Of a stretch of 64,000 nt of DNA, positions 8,216 to 33,081 are shown piece by piece. Numbering within the stretch: the first letter of the stretch is position 1; each line of letters opens with the position of its first letter. The notes below the pieces were generated by a model that worked only from the letters and a program-made list of their open reading frames with translations, did no database searches and was not told the DNA's origin. This DNA comes from Albimonas donghaensis (GTDB lineage Bacteria; Pseudomonadota; Alphaproteobacteria; Rhodobacterales; Rhodobacteraceae): contig NZ_FNMZ01000002.1 in the NCBI RefSeq assembly GCF_900106695.1, forward strand, positions 733,544 through 797,543. Direction: 5' to 3'. The translations under genes were made by a program, and so were the position numbers.

Positions 8216-8596
8216 TCAGGTCAGCGCGCCCAGATGCGCCTCGATCGCCGTGCGCATGTCGGCCACCGAGAACGGCTTGGCCACGAAGTGGTCCACCGTG
8301 TCGACAGCCGCCTGGTCGCGATAGGCGTCGGACGTGGCCAGGAACACCGGCGTCGCCTTGAAGACCGGATGCTCCTTGATCTTCTGGGCCAGTTCGACCC
8401 CGGTCAGACCGGGCATGTTGAGGTCCGAGATGACCACGTCGAATTTCTTGGTCATCATCGCCTCGAGCGCCTGGTCGCCGGCCGCGGCGAGCGTCACGTC
8501 GACCACGCCGAGCCGCTTCAGGCACTGTCGCGCGAGGCCGCGCATGGTCTGCTGGTCATCCACGACCAGCACCTTCAGGGATTTTGCTGCGGGCAT
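8216..8596 (-). CDS. cheY: CheY-type single-domain response regulator
   Basis: A 126-residue receiver domain with no output domain. The acidic pocket is D13-D14, the phospho-accepting Asp is D58 in VVISDLNMPG, the switch Thr/Ser is in FLATSDAY and the conserved Lys is K107 in VAKPF. A GAGGAG ribosome site precedes the ATG. It lies 11 bp after cheB at the end of the che operon. It is one of two CheY proteins in the operon; the other is upstream of cheA. Which one binds the motor switch and which acts as a phosphate sink cannot be told from sequence alone. Confidence 0.95.
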   Translation of the reverse strand: MPAAKSLKVLVVDDQQTMRGLARQCLKRLGVVDVTLAAAGDQALEAMMTKKFDVVISDLNMPGLTGVELAQKIKEHPVFKATPVFLATSDAYRDQAAVDTVDHFVAKPFSVADMRTAIEAHLGALT

Positions 8597-8607
8597 TTCA
8601 GGTCTCC

Positions 8608-9816
8608 TCAGTTTCCCGGGGCGGCGCGCCGGGACGGCGCGCTGCGGGCGAAATCGCAGATACGGGCGGCGAGCCGGTCGAGGTCATGCTCTTCCTCCAC
8701 CGCGCCCAGCTCGCGGGCGGCGCGGGGCATTCCGTAGACCACGCAAGTCCGCTCGGACTGGCCCAATGTGGCGGCCCCGGCGCCGCGCATGGCGCGCAGC
8801 CCGGCGGCGCCGTCCCGGCCCATGCCGGTCAGGATCACGCCGACGGCGCCGGGACCGGCGGCGCGGGCGACCGAGCCGAACAGCACGTCCACCGACGGGC
8901 AGTGACCGGTGACCGGGGTCGAATCTCCCAACCGTGTCAGCAGCCTGCGGCCGCCGATCTGAACCTCCAGATGGCGGGAGCCGGGGGCGATGCGGACCAT
9001 GCCGCTGGTCAGGGGCTCGGCGTCGCGGGCCTCGGCCACGTCGCGGCCGAGCTTGTCGCGAAGGCGCCGCGCGAAGCGGTCGGTGTATCCCTCCGGCATG
9101 TGCTGGGTGATCACCACCGGAGGCAGGTCATGCGGCAGCCCCTCCAGCAGCTCGGCCAGGGCGCCGACGCCGCCGGTGGAGGCGCCGACGGCGATCAGCG
9201 CGCGCTTCCAGGCGCTGGCACGGGTCGGTTCCGGCGGCGCGGCTGGTCTGTCGGCGAGCGCGGGCGCGGGCGCCGGCTGCCGCCCCTGCCCGACGCGCGC
9301 CGGATCGGGCCGGCTCGACGCGGGGCGGCCCGTTCGAAGCGGAGGCGCGGCCTTGCCGGCGCCGTCGCCGGGAAGAGGGACCGGCGGCGCCGCAAGCGGC
9401 GCGCGACGCCGGACCTGGGCGCGGGCGGCGGTGCGCACTTTCTCCCGCAGCTCACGCCCGAAGGGCCCCATCGGATCCGGCCCGCTGGGCTTGCGGACCA
9501 CGTCCACCGCGCCGATCTGCAGCGCGGCGAGGGTGATTTCCGTCCCCTCGGCGGTCAGCGAGCTGACCATGACCACCGGCGTCGGCCGCAGGGTCATGAT
9601 CTTTTCCAGGAACTCCAGGCCGTTCATGCCCGGCATCTCCACGTCCAGCGTCACCGCGTCGGGGTCGGTCTCCTTGATCATCCGACGCCCTTCGGCGACG
9701 TTCCCGGCCTTCGCCGCGACCTTGATGTCGCCCTCCGCCTCAAGCGCGGCGGTGATGATGCCTTGCATCAGTCGGCTGTCGTCGACCACGACCACCCGGA
9801 TCGGTCCGCCGGACAT
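8608..9816 (-). CDS. cheB: Chemotaxis protein-glutamate methylesterase/glutamine deamidase CheB
   Basis: A 402-residue adaptation enzyme that removes methyl groups from receptor glutamates. The receiver domain (1-125) has D58 in LDVEMPGMNG. A Pro/Ala/Arg-rich linker (about 135-200) leads to the methylesterase domain, with Ser213 in GASTGG, His239 in TQHMPEG and Asp335 in GMGRDG as the catalytic triad. I preferred the ATG at 9816 to an upstream candidate at 9882 because GGAGGG lies at ribosome-site distance and the receiver fold starts right after it. It lies 13 bp downstream of cheD. Confidence 0.97.
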   Translation of the reverse strand: MSGGPIRVVVVDDSRLMQGIITAALEAEGDIKVAAKAGNVAEGRRMIKETDPDAVTLDVEMPGMNGLEFLEKIMTLRPTPVVMVSSLTAEGTEITLAALQIGAVDVVRKPSGPDPMGPFGRELREKVRTAARAQVRRRAPLAAPPVPLPGDGAGKAAPPLRTGRPASSRPDPARVGQGRQPAPAPALADRPAAPPEPTRASAWKRALIAVGASTGGVGALAELLEGLPHDLPPVVITQHMPEGYTDRFARRLRDKLGRDVAEARDAEPLTSGMVRIAPGSRHLEVQIGGRRLLTRLGDSTPVTGHCPSVDVLFGSVARAAGPGAVGVILTGMGRDGAAGLRAMRGAGAATLGQSERTCVVYGMPRAARELGAVEEEHDLDRLAARICDFARSAPSRRAAPGN

Positions 9817-11299: not shown

Positions 11300-14200
11300 T
11301 CAGAACTCCGACCAGTCCTGGTCGTCCGCGACCGCCGCGGCCTGCACGGCGGCGGGCGCACGGGCCGGGGTCGGACGCGGGGCAGGCTCGGGATGGGCGT
11401 TCTCGGAGACCGCGGCGGGCTTGCGCATCGGCACGGCGAGCTTGTCCGCCGGCTTGGGCGCGAGCTGGGGCGCGAGCTGGGGCGCCGGCTTCAAGGCCGG
11501 TTTCGGCGCAGGTTTCGGCGCGGGCTTGAACGCCGTTCCGGCTGCGGCCGCCGCGGACGGAGCCCTGGGCCGCGGCGCCGCGGCGGCGCCGGGGCGGGCG
11601 GCGATCGACGACGCGCCTGGCTTCGGGGTCGGCTTCGGGGCAGGCTTGGCCGCCGCCTGCCGGCCCGCCGACGGGGCCAGGGACCCGGACGCCGCGGAGG
11701 AGGAAGAGATCCCGTCGCCGGCCCGGGCTGCGCCCCCCCCGGCCTTGCGGCTCGCCGCGGACAGGCCGGTGTCGAAGAAGCCCACCCGTTCGATCAGCCA
11801 GCGCGCCTCGTTCTGCAGCCGGCGCGCGGCCGCGGCGCTCTGCTCCGCCATCGCCGAGTTGCGCTGGGTCGCCTCGTCCATATGGCTGACCGCCTGGCTG
11901 GTCTCCTGCACGCCCGAGCTCTGCTCGCGCACCGCGGAGGAGATGTCTTCGATGGTCGCCGCGGTGCGGGCGATGCCGTCCGCGATATCCTCCAGCGCCT
12001 TGCCGGTGCCCTGCACGAGGCGGACGCCTTCGACCACATGGCCCGAGGAGGTCTGGATCAGGCCCGAGATGTCCTTGGCCGCCTGGCTGGAGCGCTGCGC
12101 CAGCGTGCGCACTTCGGCCGCCACCACCGCGAAGCCCTTGCCGGCCTCCCCGGCGCGGGCCGCCTCCACCGCCGCGTTCAGCGCCAGCAGGTTGGTCTGG
12201 AAGGCGATCGAGTCGATCACCGAGATGATGTCCGAGATCTTGGTCGAGCTGTCCTCGATCCGGCCCATCGCCGACACCGCGTCCGACATCACCGAACGGC
12301 CCGACTGGGCGCGCTGGGCGGCGTCGCGGGCGAGATTTTCGGCGCTCGACGCGTTCTCGGCGGTGGTTTTCACATTGGCGGCCATCTCCTCCATCGTCGC
12401 CGCGGTCTCCTCCAGCGAGGAGGCCTGGGCCTCGGTGCGGGCGGAGAGCTGGCCGGCTTCCTCGGAGATCGAGTCCGCCGCGCCGCGCATGCCGTCGGCC
12501 GCACTCTCGATATCCGCGATGGTCTCCGCCAGCCGGCCGACGGCCTTGTTGAGATTGCCCGCGGCCTCGCCGAAGCGGCCGGAATGCGTCTCCACCATCC
12601 GGTGAGACAGGCGGCCGGTGGCGAGCGCGTCGACCATCTTCTCGAGATCCGCGAAGAAGCCGCCGGCGACCTCGCCCATCCGGTTGATCGACTTGGACAC
12701 ATGCTGGGTGAAGCGGTCTCCCGTGGCGCCGTCCAGCCGCCGCGAGAAGTCGCCGTTCACCGTGGCGTCGAGCACCTCGTTGACCTGGGTCTCCGAGAGC
12801 ATCGGGGTCGAGCGGTCGCGCCAGGTGATCGCGCGGCCGATCATGTCGCCATGCTCGTCACGCATCTCCGTGATGGCGAGGCCGAACTGCTTGTCGCCGA
12901 TCTCGACCAGCGGCGCGCCGCGACGGTCCGGGCTCAGGAACTGCGAGGTGTCCTTGACGAAGGCCGAGGCCGGCAGGCCCACCAGCCCGTCGGGCCCCTC
13001 GGCCTGCTTGCCCAGCAGGGGCCGGAACCCGTCCTCCATCGCCTGGTTGGCGAAGACCACCTTCATGTCGTTGTCGAGGATCATCACCATGTCCGCCGAG
13101 GCGGTGAGCGCGGTGGCTATGCGCCGGGCGGCGACCGCATTCCCGTGGATCCGGTTGAGCGAGCGGGCCAGCCCGCCCAGTTCGTCCGTCCGCTCCGCGC
13201 CGGGCACGTCGTGGCGACGCCCTTCCAGCAGCTCGCCCACCGCCTGCGCCATCTCGCGCACCGGGCGTGCGAAACCGCGCGCCATCAGCCAGCCCAGCAG
13301 CAGCGCCACGCCAAGCGCCGGCAGAATGGTCAGGGCCAGGGCCATCGCGGCCTCGTTCAGGCGCCCGGCGATCAGCGATCCCCGCTCCTCCGTCACCAGC
13401 GTCCAGTCGAGCCCGTCGCGCGTGATGCGCCGGGTGACCACATAGGCGTCCTCCCCGTCGCTGCCGGGACCGAAGGCGACGTCGGCGCCCGGCTCGGCCG
13501 GGGGCGGGGCGTAGCGGGTCCTGAGCACGTCGTCGCCGGAGGTCGAGGCGAGCTCGGTGCGCAGGATGCCGTCGGCGCCGGTCAGGAAGACCGTGAGCCC
13601 GCTCTCCGCCCCTGCGAAGGACAGGGCCTCGGCCAGCCGCTCGGCGCCCAGCTGCGCCGCGACCACCCCGATGCGTCGTCCGTCTTCGTCGAACATCGGC
13701 GAAGCGGCGAAGGCCGCGGGCGCGCCGGCGGAGGGCGCGTAGGCCGCGTAATCCGCGAAGATCACCTGCCCGGCCGAAAGGTCCCTGGCCCGCCTGAACA
13801 CCTCGCCAAGGCCCGAATCCGCGTAGGGGCCATTGGTCAGGTTGGTTCCGAAATCCGCTTCCTTCGCGACCGTGTAGACCACGTCGCCCGCCGGGTTGAT
13901 CAGGAACAGGTCGTAGTAGCCCCGCTGCTCCTGAAACGCGCGAAGGGTGACATGGTGGCGCCGGTGCGCGTCCGACCAGTCGGAGCCGTCGCCGGCGTCG
14001 CGCAGGGCCTGGCGCTGCCCCAGCGGATGCGGGTTGCCGTCCAGGTAGAGCGGAACGATCGCCTCGGCATCCCAGGTCGTCGAGAATTCGAGGAGGTGGT
14101 CCGTCCCCAGTTCGGACGCATCGAGCAGCGCCATGTCGCGGCGCACGTCGTCGAGCAGGAACTCGACCCGCGCGCCGGCGCCGTCCGCCATGGACGCCAG

Positions 14201-27770: not shown

Positions 27771-29774
27771 ATGTTCGGAAAAATCCTGATCGCCAATCGC
27801 GGCGAGATCGCGGTCCGCGTGATCCGCACCGCGCGCCGCATGGGGGTCGCGACCGTCGCCGTCCATTCCGACGCCGACGCCGCCGCCCTGCATGTGGCGG
27901 AGGCCGACGAGGCCGTGCGCATCGGCCCGGCGGGCGTGTCCGAGAGCTACCTGCGCGGCGACCGGATCATCGCCGCCGCGCTGGCGACCGGCGCCCAGGC
28001 CATCCACCCCGGCTACGGCTTCCTCTCCGAGAACCCGGATTTCGCCGACGCGGTCGCCGCCGCCGGGCTGCGCTTCATCGGCCCGCCGGCCTCCGCGATC
28101 CGCGCCATGGGGCTGAAGGACGCCGCCAAGGCCCTGATGGAAAAGGCCGGCGTGCCCGTCGTGCCCGGCTATCACGGCGCCGAGCAGGACCCCGCCTTCC
28201 TCGCCGAACGGGCCGCCGAGATCGGCTATCCGGTGCTGATCAAGGCCCGCGCCGGCGGCGGCGGCAAGGGCATGCGCCGGGTCGACGAACCCGGCGGCTT
28301 CGCCGAGGCGCTGGATTCCGCCCGCCGCGAGGCCGCCTCGGCCTTCGGCGACGACGCGGTGTTGATCGAGAAATACGTGACCCGCCCGCGCCATGTCGAA
28401 GTGCAGGTCTTCGCCGACGACCACGGCGACGCGGTGCATCTGTTCGAGCGCGACTGCTCTCTCCAGCGCCGCCACCAGAAGGTGATCGAGGAGGCCCCCG
28501 CCCCCGGCATGTCCCCGGAAATGCGCACGGAAATCGGCGCCGCCGCGGTCCGCGCCGCCAAGGCCATCGGCTATTCCGGGGCGGGGACGGTGGAGTTCAT
28601 CGCGGATGGGTCGGAGGGGCTGAGGGCGGATCGGGTGTGGTTCATGGAAATGAACACGCGCCTGCAGGTGGAGCATCCGGTGACCGAGGCGATCACCGGG
28701 ACCGATCTTGTGGAATGGCAGCTCCGCGTGGCGGCCGGCGAGGCTCTGCCAGCGGCGCAGGAGGACCTGTCGATCCGCGGCGCGGCGATGGAGGCGCGGC
28801 TCTACGCCGAGGACCCGGCCCGCGGGTTCCTGCCCCAGATCGGACGGCTCGCGCATCTCGCCCTGCCCGACCGCGCGGCGCGGATCGACTCGGGCGTGCG
28901 GGCCGGCGACGCGATCACCCCGCACTATGACCCGATGATCGCCAAGATCATCGCCACCGGCGCGACGCGGGAGGAGGCGCGGACCCGGCTGCTCGCGGCG
29001 CTGCGGGCGTCCGAGATCGCCGGGCTGGTGACGAACCTGCCGTTCCTGCGCGCGCTCGTGGACCATCCGGCGTTCACGGCCGGCGAGATGGATACCGGGC
29101 TCGTGGACCGGGAGCTGGAGGCGCTGACGGCGCCTCCGCCGATGCCCGAGGCCGCGCCGGCGCTGGCCGCGGTGGCGGCGCTGGGGCTGGCCGGAACGGC
29201 GCCGGACGGCGCGGAACCCTTTGGAATGGCAGACGGATTCCGGCTCTGGGCGCCGGAGCGGCGACGGGTGGTGCTGGACGGGCCGGAGGGGCCGACGGAG
29301 GTGGTTCTGGAGATCCGGGGCCCCGGCCGCTTCGCCGTCATCGGGGCGGAGGGCGCGGTTCCGCTGAGCCTCGACCGTCCGGCGGAGGCGCTGCGCATGA
29401 CCTGGGGCGAGGCCGCGCCGGCGCGCCCGGTGCGGCTGGTCCGGCATGACGGCAAGGCGACGGTGATCCTCGACGGCGCCGCCACGACCTGGACGCTTCC
29501 GGACCCGATCGCGGCGGCGGAGGCGGCGGCCTCGGGCGGGGGCGACGCGCTGTCGGCGCCGATGCCGGGGCTGATCAAACTGGTCTCGGCGGCGCCGGGC
29601 GACCGCGTGACCGAGGGCCAGACGCTGATCGTCATGGAGGCGATGAAGATGGAGCACCGCCTGACCGCCCCCCGCGACGGCGAGGTCCTGGACCTGCTCT
29701 GCGCCGAGGGGTCCCAGGTGGCCGAGGGCGCGGTTCTGCTGCGGCTGGCGGAGGTCGAGGCGGCGGCGGAGTGA
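27771..29774 (+). CDS. mccA: 3-methylcrotonyl-CoA carboxylase alpha (biotin carboxylase/biotin carrier) subunit
   Basis: A 667-residue biotin-dependent carboxylase subunit. Residues 1-446 are biotin carboxylase: MFGKILIANRGEIAVRVIRT, GYGFLSENPDFADAV, the Gly-rich ARAGGGGKGM ATP loop and EMNTRLQVEHPVTEAITG. The C-terminal biotinyl domain has VMEAMKMEHRL with the biotinylated Lys at about residue 626. It feeds carboxybiotin to MccB. Pairing with ivd and mccB identifies it as methylcrotonyl- rather than acetyl- or propionyl-CoA carboxylase. It is the last GC-rich gene before the AT-rich island. Confidence 0.94.
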   Translation: MFGKILIANRGEIAVRVIRTARRMGVATVAVHSDADAAALHVAEADEAVRIGPAGVSESYLRGDRIIAAALATGAQAIHPGYGFLSENPDFADAVAAAGLRFIGPPASAIRAMGLKDAAKALMEKAGVPVVPGYHGAEQDPAFLAERAAEIGYPVLIKARAGGGGKGMRRVDEPGGFAEALDSARREAASAFGDDAVLIEKYVTRPRHVEVQVFADDHGDAVHLFERDCSLQRRHQKVIEEAPAPGMSPEMRTEIGAAAVRAAKAIGYSGAGTVEFIADGSEGLRADRVWFMEMNTRLQVEHPVTEAITGTDLVEWQLRVAAGEALPAAQEDLSIRGAAMEARLYAEDPARGFLPQIGRLAHLALPDRAARIDSGVRAGDAITPHYDPMIAKIIATGATREEARTRLLAALRASEIAGLVTNLPFLRALVDHPAFTAGEMDTGLVDRELEALTAPPPMPEAAPALAAVAALGLAGTAPDGAEPFGMADGFRLWAPERRRVVLDGPEGPTEVVLEIRGPGRFAVIGAEGAVPLSLDRPAEALRMTWGEAAPARPVRLVRHDGKATVILDGAATTWTLPDPIAAAEAAASGGGDALSAPMPGLIKLVSAAPGDRVTEGQTLIVMEAMKMEHRLTAPRDGEVLDLLCAEGSQVAEGAVLLRLAEVEAAAE

Positions 29775-30133
29775 TTCTTCAGGAGACTGAGGGTCGTTCA
29801 GGTTCACGTTAACGCTTTCGGCGTTTCGGCGGGGGTGACACCCGTGCACCGTGCGTGCACCGGGCGTATGCCTAGTAAAATCGTCAGGATTGAGGGGCAA
29901 GATGGCTAATCAACCTAGCCTCTGCGAGAGTCAAACATCGGCTCAACGTAATTAGGAATGACAGACTTGGCCCTTCAGCAGCCAACCTTTAGCAGATAGT
30001 AGATATAAAGAGCGGCCAATCCCTCAGTATCTCTGGAAATTTGCCCGCCGCAATGGATAATTCATATCCCTTGCTCGCTAAAGCGTGAGCGCGCTATATT
30101 ATAATAGCACAAATAGTGGAGGAGCGGAGTGCC
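29775..30133. other. 359-bp AT-rich intergenic stretch, left part of an island
   Basis: Base composition drops sharply from about 29785. The stretch contains a CGTGCACCG direct repeat around 29842-29860, a 17-codon ORF (29902-29955) with a GAGGGG in front but no other support, and the promoter of the gene at 30134. No attachment-site duplication or integrase is visible. Confidence 0.6.
30071..30105 (+). promoter_or_regulatory. AT-rich promoter of the orphan gene
   Basis: A perfect TATAAT lies at 30100-30105, overlapping a TATATT at 30095-30100. TTGCTC at 30071-30076 gives an 18-bp spacer to TATATT. The -10 region sits inside a short dyad, GCTAT-N6-ATAGC (30093-30108), a possible repressor site. 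Confidence 0.5.
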
Positions 30134-31018
30134 TTGGCTGAGATAGAGAACATTTGGATTAGCTACGCCCTAAATTTCGATGGACGCGATGCGGACCGAA
30201 ACATGCTTGAGGCTCACTCCGCAGGACAAAGCATTGAAGGCCTATCTTGGGCCATTGCGCTAGTATTAAACTATGGCATCACAGGGAGAACTCGATACTC
30301 GCGAGACCTGAGCAAATCGGCAAAGATTTTCATTTCGCCGCCACGCCGAGGCAGCGTCCTGTATGATCTAAACATCCTCGTTCAGCAGAACCCCTTCCTA
30401 GCTTTAGTTGTCGGAGGAATTGCAGTAAATGTCGTAACACCCTACATCAGCGGCCTGATTAGCTACCTCTTTAACCAAGTAGTAGGACTAGGTGACAATC
30501 CCTCAGATGAATTAGGCACTTTTCTTGAAAAGCTCAATCGAAACGATCTCAATACAATCACTCAGCGAATCGAGCCCCCCCTTACTCGAGCCCACGCAGC
30601 GATCGGACGAACAGCAGAGACGATTACGTTAAGAACGGGCGCACGCGAAATCTTCTGCTTTGACTCAAACACCAAGGAAAATCTGAAATCCAGGCCGACT
30701 GGCGACTTCGACACGATCGACAGCAATATTACATCTTTTAATTTATTAACAAGAAACGGGCGACTATTCAGCAATGAAATAGACGCCACGATCCCCTTCA
30801 GTCTTCGTGATTTCACACAGCACGACACCACAACTGCCTTGATTTTAAGCATGGAGCAATACTCAATCGGTCGAAACGGACATATTCGCATAACTGGTGA
30901 AAGAGTAGAGACTCAAGCAGGAAGATTAGTGAAGTATATTGTAGGATCCGCCAGTCAGATTCCGCCCGCTGATTGGATCGATGGCGTCGACCCATTGAGG
31001 CAGAGACGGCCGAGCTAG
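30134..31018 (+). CDS. Unrecognised membrane-anchored protein in an AT-rich island
   Basis: A 294-residue protein I cannot assign with confidence. The N-terminus (SYALNFDGRDADRN, GQSIEGLSWAIALVLNYG, FISPPRRGSVLYDL) resembles an uncharacterised family of roughly 300-residue bacterial proteins that I recall only loosely (possibly DUF7946). A hydrophobic stretch at about 87-115 is probably one or two TM segments, leaving a soluble C-terminal half. I chose TTG at 30134 because GGAGGAG lies 9 bases upstream; an upstream GTG (30116) would overlap that site. GC content and codon use are far below the neighbours (AGA, TTA, ATA are common), which points to recent transfer. No partner gene is adjacent. 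Confidence 0.75.
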   Translation: MAEIENIWISYALNFDGRDADRNMLEAHSAGQSIEGLSWAIALVLNYGITGRTRYSRDLSKSAKIFISPPRRGSVLYDLNILVQQNPFLALVVGGIAVNVVTPYISGLISYLFNQVVGLGDNPSDELGTFLEKLNRNDLNTITQRIEPPLTRAHAAIGRTAETITLRTGAREIFCFDSNTKENLKSRPTGDFDTIDSNITSFNLLTRNGRLFSNEIDATIPFSLRDFTQHDTTTALILSMEQYSIGRNGHIRITGERVETQAGRLVKYIVGSASQIPPADWIDGVDPLRQRRPS

Positions 31019-31064
31019 TGATACCGCTTCAAAGGCACCGCATTTACAACTAATGCCCTTCCCT

Positions 31065-31077
31065 CCCCCCCCCCCCC
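31065..31077. repeat. 13-base poly-C tract upstream of puuE
   Basis: An uninterrupted run of 13 C lies 39 bp before the allantoinase start, at the right boundary of the AT-rich island. Tracts this long are prone to slippage; here it could alter promoter spacing but not a reading frame. Confidence 0.85.
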
Positions 31078-31116
31078 GGCGCCATTATCCCCCGGACACC
31101 ACCCCGGAGGCCCCCC

Positions 31117-32037
31117 ATGCTCGACCCCGACTACCCGCGCGACCTGATCGGCTACGGCGCCAACCCGCCCGACCCCGAATGGCCGAAGGGCGCGAAACTG
31201 GCGCTCAACTTCGTGATCAATTACGAAGAGGGCTCCGAATACTCGCTGCTGCATGGGGATGACCAGTCGGAGGCGTTCCTCTCGGAAGTCACCCAGGCGA
31301 CGAACTGGCCCGGCCAGCGGCACTGGAACATGGAGAGCATGTACGAATACGGCTCACGCGCCGGGTTCTGGCGGCTGCACCGGATTTTCACCCAGCGAGA
31401 CCTTCCCGTCACCGTCTACGGCGTGGCCATGGCGCTGGCGCGCAACCCCGAGGCGGTGGCCGGGATGAAGGCGGCGGGGTGGGAGATCGCCTCGCACGGG
31501 CTGCGCTGGATCGAATACAAGGATTTCACGGTGGAGGCGGAGCGGGCGCATCTCCACCAGGCGATCGCGATGCATACCGAGGCGACTGGGGAGCGGCCGC
31601 TGGGATGGTATACGGGACGATGCTCGGTCAACACGGTGGATATCGTGGCGGCGGAGGGGGGGTTCGAGTACGCGGCGGACAGTTACGCGGACGACCTGCC
31701 CTACTGGCATCACGCGCCGACGGGGCCTCAGCTGATCCTGCCCTACACTCTGGATGCGAACGACGCGCGGTTCATCTCCTCGCAGGGCTGGGGCGGGCCG
31801 CGGGATTTCCACGAATACCTGTCCAACTCGGTGGAGGTGCTGCTGGAGGAGGGGCGCGACGGGGCGCCCAAGATGATGACCGTGGGGCTGCATTGCCGGC
31901 TGGTCGGGCGGCCCGGGCGGGCGGCGGCGCTGAAGCGGTTTCTCGATGAGGTGGCGGGGCGCCCGGAGATCTGGGTGACCACGCGGCTGGAGATCGCGCG
32001 GCACTGGAAGGCGAGGTTCCCGGCGCCGGCGGCGTGA
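31117..32037 (+). CDS. puuE: Allantoinase, PuuE polysaccharide-deacetylase type
   Basis: A 306-residue NodB-like deacetylase-fold protein of the PuuE group, which hydrolyses allantoin to allantoate without the metal site of classical allantoinase. Diagnostic stretches are FVINYEEGSEYSLLHGD, WNMESMYEYGSRAGFWRLHR, EIASHGLRWIEYKDF, GWYTGRCSVNT and YADDLPYWH. GGAGG precedes the ATG. Allantoicase and ureidoglycolate lyase genes 3-5 kb downstream on the same strand complete the route from allantoin to glyoxylate plus urea. The intervening genes run the other way. Confidence 0.92.
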   Translation: MLDPDYPRDLIGYGANPPDPEWPKGAKLALNFVINYEEGSEYSLLHGDDQSEAFLSEVTQATNWPGQRHWNMESMYEYGSRAGFWRLHRIFTQRDLPVTVYGVAMALARNPEAVAGMKAAGWEIASHGLRWIEYKDFTVEAERAHLHQAIAMHTEATGERPLGWYTGRCSVNTVDIVAAEGGFEYAADSYADDLPYWHHAPTGPQLILPYTLDANDARFISSQGWGGPRDFHEYLSNSVEVLLEEGRDGAPKMMTVGLHCRLVGRPGRAAALKRFLDEVAGRPEIWVTTRLEIARHWKARFPAPAA

Positions 32038-32067: not shown

Positions 32068-33081
32068 TCAGCCGGGCTTGCGGCCCATGGCGAGCATGGT
32101 GAGGCCGGGGATCATCGGGCCGACGGTCACGTCCTCGAACCCGGCCTTGCCCAGCGCCTCGGCCAGCCAGGCGTCGTCGAGCGAGCGCGCGGTGGGCGTG
32201 AAGGCGGTGTGCTGGAGCTGCCAGAGCGCGGCGAGCTTGGGGCCGGTGCGGTCGGACTCGACCACGAAATCATGGATCATGATGCGGCCGCCCGGGTTCA
32301 GCGCGGTCATGGCGTCGGCGATCAGGCCCTCATGCGCGTCTCCGGGGACGCCGGAGAACAGGTAGGACATCAGCACCGCGTCCTGCCCGCCGGGCCAGCC
32401 GAGCTCCAGCGCGTCGCCGTCGTCATAGGCGATGCGGTCGGACAGGCCGGCCTCGGCGACGTATTTGCGGCCGAGGCTGGCGACGTTGGGGAAGTCGACG
32501 ATGGTCGCCGTCAGCTCCGGATTGGCGCTGCAGAGGGTGATCGAGAACGCCCCGGTGCCGCCGCCCACGTCCAGCAGCTTGCGGGCCTCGGAGAGGTCCA
32601 CCAGCTTGGCGAGGCCGCGGGCCGGGCCGAGGGAGCCGGCGTGCTGGCTCTCGGAATAGAGGCGGGCTTCCTCGGGGTCGGAGAACCACTCGGCGTAGGA
32701 GCCGGTGTCGGCGTCGGACAGCTTGTTGGCCAGCGCCGGCTCGATCTGGTCGAGCAGCCGGTACATCTGGCGATCCACCTGCAGGCGCAGATAGTCGCCG
32801 AAGTCGTATTTGGCGCCCTGCACCAGGAAGGCTTCGGAGGCGGGGGCGTTGGCGAACTTGCCGTCCTCGACCGACACCAGCCCCAGCGAAGCGACGGCGG
32901 TGAGCAGGGTGCGGGCGCGCTCCACCGGCAGATCGGACCTGGCGGCGACCTCCTCGGCGCAGAGCGGACCGTCCCCGAGATGGGTGAACACCCCGTAATG
33001 GAGCGCGGCGAACAGCGCCTTGGAGCCCATGAAGCCGAAGGCGATATCCGAAATCTCCTCGGCCGAGGTCAGCAGGGTCAT
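32068..33081 (-). CDS. Family-2 O/S-methyltransferase (acetylserotonin-methyltransferase-like)
   Basis: A 337-residue SAM-dependent methyltransferase with the two-part layout of family 2: an N-terminal winged-helix dimerisation domain (about 10-100, with AALHYGVFTHL and ARTLLTAVASLGLV) and a Rossmann domain with KLLDVGGGTGAFS, ATIVDFPNV, YDDGDALELGWP and GGRIMIHDFVV. The substrate is unknown. Small-molecule O-methyltransferases and DsyB, the methylthiohydroxybutyrate methyltransferase of marine alphaproteobacteria that leads to DMSP, share this architecture. It converges with puuE (31 bp apart) and follows sigJ in the same direction. Confidence 0.85.
   Translation of the reverse strand: MTLLTSAEEISDIAFGFMGSKALFAALHYGVFTHLGDGPLCAEEVAARSDLPVERARTLLTAVASLGLVSVEDGKFANAPASEAFLVQGAKYDFGDYLRLQVDRQMYRLLDQIEPALANKLSDADTGSYAEWFSDPEEARLYSESQHAGSLGPARGLAKLVDLSEARKLLDVGGGTGAFSITLCSANPELTATIVDFPNVASLGRKYVAEAGLSDRIAYDDGDALELGWPGGQDAVLMSYLFSGVPGDAHEGLIADAMTALNPGGRIMIHDFVVESDRTGPKLAALWQLQHTAFTPTARSLDDAWLAEALGKAGFEDVTVGPMIPGLTMLAMGRKPG

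Follow-up and report, generated by a model that had tools for sequence, protein, structure and literature searches.

A lone AT-rich insert in Albimonas donghaensis probably carries a one-gene anti-phage system distantly related to MichelleMyBell gp29

Introduction

What is a solitary AT-rich gene doing between two host genes of a GC-rich chromosome? The question is raised by a locus of Albimonas donghaensis on contig NZ_FNMZ01000002.1 (positions 733,544 to 797,543, a stretch of 64,000 nucleotides that we call the window), where one gene of 294 codons lies between two genes whose names, mccA and puuE, we have taken over from a preliminary description of this DNA. That description saw a lone membrane-anchored orphan and supposed that it might be a stand-alone anti-phage or stress gene. 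Our reading, to which we give a probability of about 0.6, is that the gene is a one-gene anti-phage insert, distantly related to the protein gp29 of the mycobacteriophage (and prophage) MichelleMyBell, and that its product would act alone to abort infections. The anti-phage hunch was thus probably right, the membrane-anchored orphan not.

Results

The product belongs to a family that reaches gp29

30134..31018, + strand: DUF7946-DUF7947 gene, 294 amino acids (aa), likely encoding a phage-exclusion protein
30170..30679, + strand: DUF7946 domain, residues 13-182 (69.8 bits, cut-off 27)

The product exceeds the Pfam cut-offs (27 bits each) for both DUF7946 (PF25678) and DUF7947 (PF25679; 44.2 bits, residues 193-273), and 49 other proteins match it at E ≤ 1e-3 with 38-68% identity, so that it can no longer be called an orphan. 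Both strings proposed as its signature, FDGRDADRN and GQSIEGL, are present. The literature searched held no paper carrying either DUF name, and to that extent the family is rightly described as uncharacterised; it does, however, reach a defence protein that has been described. A wide-alignment search, in which 7,995 candidates were scored, opened the way to a Vibrio phage record in which the gene carries the depositors' label 'MMB_gp29_gp30__gp29'. DUF7946 profiles rank MichelleMyBell (MMB) gp29 first among the 14 proteins of the gp29 region (15.4 and 20.2 bits). When the family was compared profile to profile with a gp29 family built from gp29 and 119 of its 120 listed relatives, P was 1.2e-7 over residues 7-93 of the window protein (reversed control 0.05), and the alphaproteobacterial sequences alone gave P 2.4e-7. 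An intermediate clade, assembled from 20 of 24 new wide-search proteins (seven with a precomputed DUF7946 match) and three proteins from phage and plasmid records, matched the gp29 family across nearly its full length (P 8.4e-16) and was itself matched by the core family (P 3.7e-6; reversed control 0.81). These comparisons suggest that the window protein is a gp29-type protein, in the sense of distant homology only.

What gp29 does is described in the available excerpts of three papers. One calls the MichelleMyBell system "typical of abortive infection", in that the phage adsorbs and injects and no phage is produced (PMC6426606); in another, gp29 is the "toxic protein" of the gp29-gp30 system and gp30 its membrane partner (PMC11856565); and according to the third, phage Tweety plates four to five orders of magnitude less well when the prophage is present (PMC8549241).

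Predicted structures share an element order ending in an OB fold

30392..30484, + strand: hydrophobic helical segment, residues 87-117 (model helices 87-93 and 98-117)
30692..30955, + strand: predicted C-terminal OB-fold domain, residues 187-274, covering DUF7947

In the predicted structure, the window protein opens with an N-terminal β-α-β-β domain, continues with a stretch of hydrophobic helices and a linker that is also helical, and closes with a C-terminal OB-fold domain, recognized in the model by its barrel of five strands and by a helix placed after strand 3 and before strand 4. The main element order is common to this model and to that of the gp29 orthologue P0075 (computed with 89 of 120 listed relatives aligned), which likewise ends in an OB fold. 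By sequence, the best match of the window protein in the PDB had E 0.89. By structure, the top match of its model was A0A8S5QA00, a phage protein named for DUF6575 (E 1.1e-6, probability 1.00), which the gp29-orthologue model also matches (E 8.1e-10, probability 1.00); a truncated gp29 orthologue ranked third (E 0.044, by itself not significant). Among the 21 systems of Vassallo et al. 2022, one reportedly contains a DUF6575 domain. The Pfam matches of the window protein at E ≤ 1 include no DUF6575 (PF20215), and a scan for this domain found it in 2 of 249 genomes, both times as a partial match. Considering the low TM-scores given below, we treat the DUF6575 link as a lead only.

A relative in phi80 lies where lambda carries rexA and rexB

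Protein 40A of phage phi80 (L085 4959-5825) is related to the family over its full length (72.3 bits; hhalign P 3.3e-13, residues 6-287). Its gene directly follows cI, where lambda has rexA and rexB, and no partner gene is annotated between 40A and the pL operators, which makes it the closest hint that such a system can last as a single gene. It is annotated as "acetate kinase superfamily domain". The matches listed by the literature search included no paper naming 40A, and the excerpt of a review available to us lists cor alone for phi80 (PMC11436027). A sequence relation to lambda RexA itself was rejected, as hhalign P was 0.36 for the core profile and 0.36-0.83 for the five family profiles.

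A further indication comes from PADLOC, whose PDC-S42 model matches six of the nine gp29-type relatives tested, including MMB gp29 (1.6e-16), phi80 40A (1.1e-5) and P0063 (8.5e-37), and leaves three unmatched. We take PDC-S42 to be a single-gene phage defence candidate. The literature searched yielded no paper on it, and the parts of two PADLOC papers that were available contain no PDC names.

The gene sits in a foreign segment absent from genus-mates

27771..29774, + strand: left host gene (mccA), 667 aa, GC content 0.742; the homologous segment adjoins puuE in both genus-mates
29833..29890, + strand: copy of a dispersed native repeat, marking the left edge of the foreign DNA (six copies aligned)
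29891..31060, no strand: AT-rich segment of about 1.17 kb with a single gene, probably foreign, as judged from GC steps and absence from genus-mates
31117..32037, + strand: right host gene (puuE), 306 aa, with an 81% identical match in both genus-mates

A low-GC block of roughly 1.3 kb in a chromosome of about 70% GC had been pointed out before, and it is real. The gene has a GC content of 0.482 (0.497 at third codon positions), as against 0.68-0.74 (0.89-0.94) in three neighbouring genes; compared with 900-bp windows outside the island (mean 0.728, standard deviation 0.032, minimum 0.657; n=1218, overlapping), its z is -7.6. The codons named as rare elsewhere bear this out: the island gene has six AGA, eight TTA and three ATA, 17 in sum among 294 codons, and none occurs in the 1310 codons of mccA (667), puuE (306) and the gene at 32068-33081 (337). 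At the right edge GC rises from 0.45 (31019-31060) to 0.82 (31061-31116). The left edge needs correction. The block had been drawn from 29780 to 31060, but positions 29,833-29,890 hold a GC-rich repeat of about 55 bp with two GTGCACC units, which has five further matches in the same genome and five in another (G020), with seven candidate places scored in each. As seven of 17 candidate places were scored in the own genome, the count there is five or more. Because the same repeat sits elsewhere in the genome, we regard it as native and place the foreign part at about 29,890-31,060. One open reading frame (ORF) takes up most of the island; no tRNA, no convincing second gene and no Rfam match at E ≤ 0.5 were found in the foreign segment. 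Another lone AT-rich gene (L095 4899-5843, in G000:C16:1052000-1060500; 314 aa, GC 0.47) lies some 520 bp from a copy of the repeat; its product has no PDB match at E ≤ 0.01 and by eye presumably resembles DUF2971.

In both genus-mates examined (2/2), mccA and puuE are adjacent without the island gene, and DUF7946 occurs nowhere in either genome, so that we reject a gene native to this locus. Their mccA-puuE spacer (L036 1130-1430 in G001; the same spacer in L037, G002) consists of a palindromic, GC-rich repeat. Counted on both strands, it gives 75 matches in one genome and 77 in the other (40 of 381 and 40 of 430 candidate places scored), but a single, weak match in the window genome. The island segment was likely acquired horizontally, and the earlier description of foreign single-gene cargo is borne out by the empty junction and by the sporadic family.

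The family is sporadic and appears to travel

DUF7946 was found in 2 of 61 relatives, in 9 of 394 genomes of the bacterial family (eight over the Pfam cut-off) and in 7 of 398 genomes of the phylum (five over it), the window genome being counted each time. The family is sporadic. Homologues at the same locus in most relatives, named beforehand as a finding that would refute the earlier reading, are not what we see. At all 16 loci compared outside the window genome, the DUF7946 gene has a lower GC content than the DNA around it, by at least 0.09 at 12 and by 0.012-0.054 at four. This set leaves out G385 (21.7 bits, a partial match in a 702-aa frame) and L025, a duplicate of L006, and keeps L033 (24.4 bits) and L034 (21.9 bits) though they fall below the Pfam cut-off.

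Neighbours vary from site to site. As assessed by Pfam at E ≤ 1e-5 on 40 neighbour proteins from 15 of the 16 loci, the 20 that matched include LepA, two-ATPase ABC proteins, DXS, PolA and MutL, and members of the M13 peptidase, ABC-3 permease, kynureninase and ornithine cyclodeaminase families. The homologue in L006 is on a plasmid-like contig, next to a plasmid relaxase and a ParA/VirC1-type gene; that in L033 is near a baseplate-hub-like gene (26.6 bits, slightly below cut-off); those in L021 and L026 adjoin integrases; and that of Vibrio sp. HDW18 is a single gene within an integron-like array. Phages carry family members as well, although a search of phage records with the window protein yielded no relatives and only queries from other clades did so; IMG/VR viral contigs likewise gave no relatives. 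Taken together, the gene appears to travel, often alone.

Small membrane-protein genes adjoin several relatives (MMB gp30, L033 and L081), and hydrophobic neighbours are also seen at L030, L031, L034 and in a Helicobacter prophage. In L033, a phage-like locus, and L081, a Vibrio phage, the gp29-type gene is followed by a pair of the same layout, in which a small hydrophobic protein (9025-9267 and 12374-12625, respectively) precedes a hydrophobic protein of 160-170 aa (8513-9028 and 12615-13100). This layout is possibly a three-gene version of the gp29 system. Unlike at these relatives, no such gene, and no other co-transferred partner, was found beside the window gene.

The gene probably starts at TTG, and its promoter is doubtful

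30100..30105, + strand: TATAAT hexamer, possible -10 element, for which a promoter scan gives no support
30118..30124, + strand: GGAGGAG, read directly from the sequence, probable ribosome-binding site for the TTG start

The longest ORF in the island opens at GTG 30116 (300 aa), but the likeliest start, as judged from the letters themselves, is TTG at 30134, behind the GGAGGAG. The TATAAT is the sole + strand copy in the window; the - strand has a single copy, which overlaps it, at 30098. The hexamer credited to the gene as its own promoter therefore exists; the promoter does not follow from it, since the scan pairs no -35 element with it and finds one site elsewhere in the island where 1.1 would be expected, no better than shuffled sequence.

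Discussion

How the protein might work can be sketched as follows. Some product of phage replication, either single-stranded nucleic acid or a protein attached to such nucleic acid, would be bound by the OB domain. The N-terminal half, which has the hydrophobic helices, would next bring the infected cell to a stop, probably at the membrane, and no progeny would be made. We propose a one-gene form because a gp30-like membrane partner is missing beside the window gene; without gp30, this clade would be a self-contained version. Sensing, killing, membrane action and independence of a partner are all inferred for the window protein, and the membrane step is the weakest of them. More broadly, DUF7946-DUF7947 proteins, gp29 and phi80 40A may belong to a single, ancient superfamily of infection sensors with an OB fold. 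This would be an exclusion system without sequence relation to lambda Rex, carried by phi80 at the place of rexAB and spreading through bacterial chromosomes as bare single genes without a separate membrane partner. We hold this wider proposal tentatively, at somewhat less than even odds.

A stand-alone anti-phage gene is favoured by the homology to gp29, by phi80 40A at the rex position and by PDC-S42 matches to relatives; several observations weigh on the other side. As far as the excerpts of the three papers go, gp29 is reported as a defence solely as a pair with gp30 (PMC6426606, PMC11856565, PMC8549241), and apart from the gene itself no ORF of at least 25 aa in 29775-31117 has a 19-residue hydropathy above 1.33, compared with 2.61 for gp30. 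There is no direct sequence match between the window protein and gp29, and gp29 has no DUF7946 match in Pfam. The profile match to gp29 covers residues 7-93 only, the OB-fold match being one of predicted structures; against the gp29 family, three sub-clades give weak matches (P 0.0013, 0.0035 and 0.077), and the alphaproteobacterial clade taken by itself reaches only P 0.062 against the intermediate clade. The matches to A0A8S5QA00 have TM-scores of 0.23-0.37 and root-mean-square deviations of 15.7 and 8.8 Å. The window protein itself has no PADLOC match at E ≤ 1, PDC-S42 included, and searches with the PADLOC models used would miss it. Its hydrophobic segment is not strongly conserved, with a mean hydropathy of 1.86 at residues 88-106 and peaks of 1.06-1.16 in the three nearest homologues for which DNA was available, so that a true membrane span there is doubtful and the name membrane-anchored finds little support.

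The neighbourhoods help little. A survey for defence islands had been suggested, and defence-type neighbours were recognized at three of the 16 homologue loci: a TIR protein in L004, a SIR2 protein in the L020 array, and type I restriction-modification genes in L031 (7329-12460), which adjoin the homologue and its 191-aa hydrophobic neighbour and whose assignment was confirmed by PDB matches of two genes. Half of the neighbour proteins tested (20/40) had no Pfam match. The PADLOC scan took in 181 of 201 neighbour ORFs, leaving out 17 of the Vibrio array and three others, and gave many raw matches, listed without the member that matched; for its second batch, 25 of 105 families are listed. Enrichment for defence islands is weak.

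Among other explanations, a lysogeny-module gene of phage origin with a role outside defence, for instance in handling single-stranded DNA or in repressor-linked regulation, might have been stranded here after the remainder of a prophage had gone. We think this unlikely, as the available excerpts report gp29 as part of a defence (PMC6426606, PMC11856565) and the gene occurs at many unrelated sites without recognized phage genes among the tested neighbours. Marginally less probable still is a toxin or stress gene kept for reasons apart from phages, such as plasmid or integron stabilization or general stress. That gp29 is called toxic (PMC11856565, excerpt) fits it, as do the plasmid-like contig and the integron-like array that house homologues, but no antitoxin-like partner was recognized beside the window gene, and both carriage by phages and PDC-S42 speak for defence. 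A decaying, non-functional foreign gene would account for a single copy of atypical composition whose promoter lacks support from the scan. We consider it very improbable: the frame of 294 codons is intact, the conserved motifs are kept, and the gene is slightly closer to the two nearest loci in protein sequence (66-67% identity) than in DNA (64%), as under purifying selection. The poorest candidate is a former integron cassette at a secondary chromosomal site, its function incidental. Its best argument is the single Vibrio gene in an integron-like array, where the pattern used finds eight attC-like matches in a 16-kb locus; between 29775 and 31400 the same pattern finds none (0.26 expected in shuffles), and we have set the cassette aside.

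Should the reading as a one-gene anti-phage insert be true, two DUF families without a paper in the literature searched would become a likely phage-defence superfamily, gene 40A of the classic laboratory phage phi80, which had no function that we could find, would be explained, and a one-gene system would let the sensing and killing parts of abortive infection be separated. The case also shows that a likely defence gene can occur singly and without a partner between housekeeping genes, out of reach of searches that rely on defence islands.

Among known systems, phi80 40A resembles the window protein as a full-length family relative with no annotated partner and differs in being encoded by a phage, directly after cI, the place that RexA and RexB have in lambda. 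A phage protein named for DUF6575 structurally matches the models of both the window protein and the gp29 orthologue. With MichelleMyBell gp29 the window protein has in common its N-terminal domain (profile P 1.2e-7) and its predicted element order, including the C-terminal OB fold; the gp29 orthologue has strands inserted at 114-137 that are missing from the window model, which in turn has an extra short helix at 18-22. Whereas gp29 belongs to a prophage and has the membrane partner gp30, the window gene is chromosomal, with no phage genes and no such partner beside it. It is best called a partnerless variant of a described prophage defence, that of MichelleMyBell gp29/gp30.
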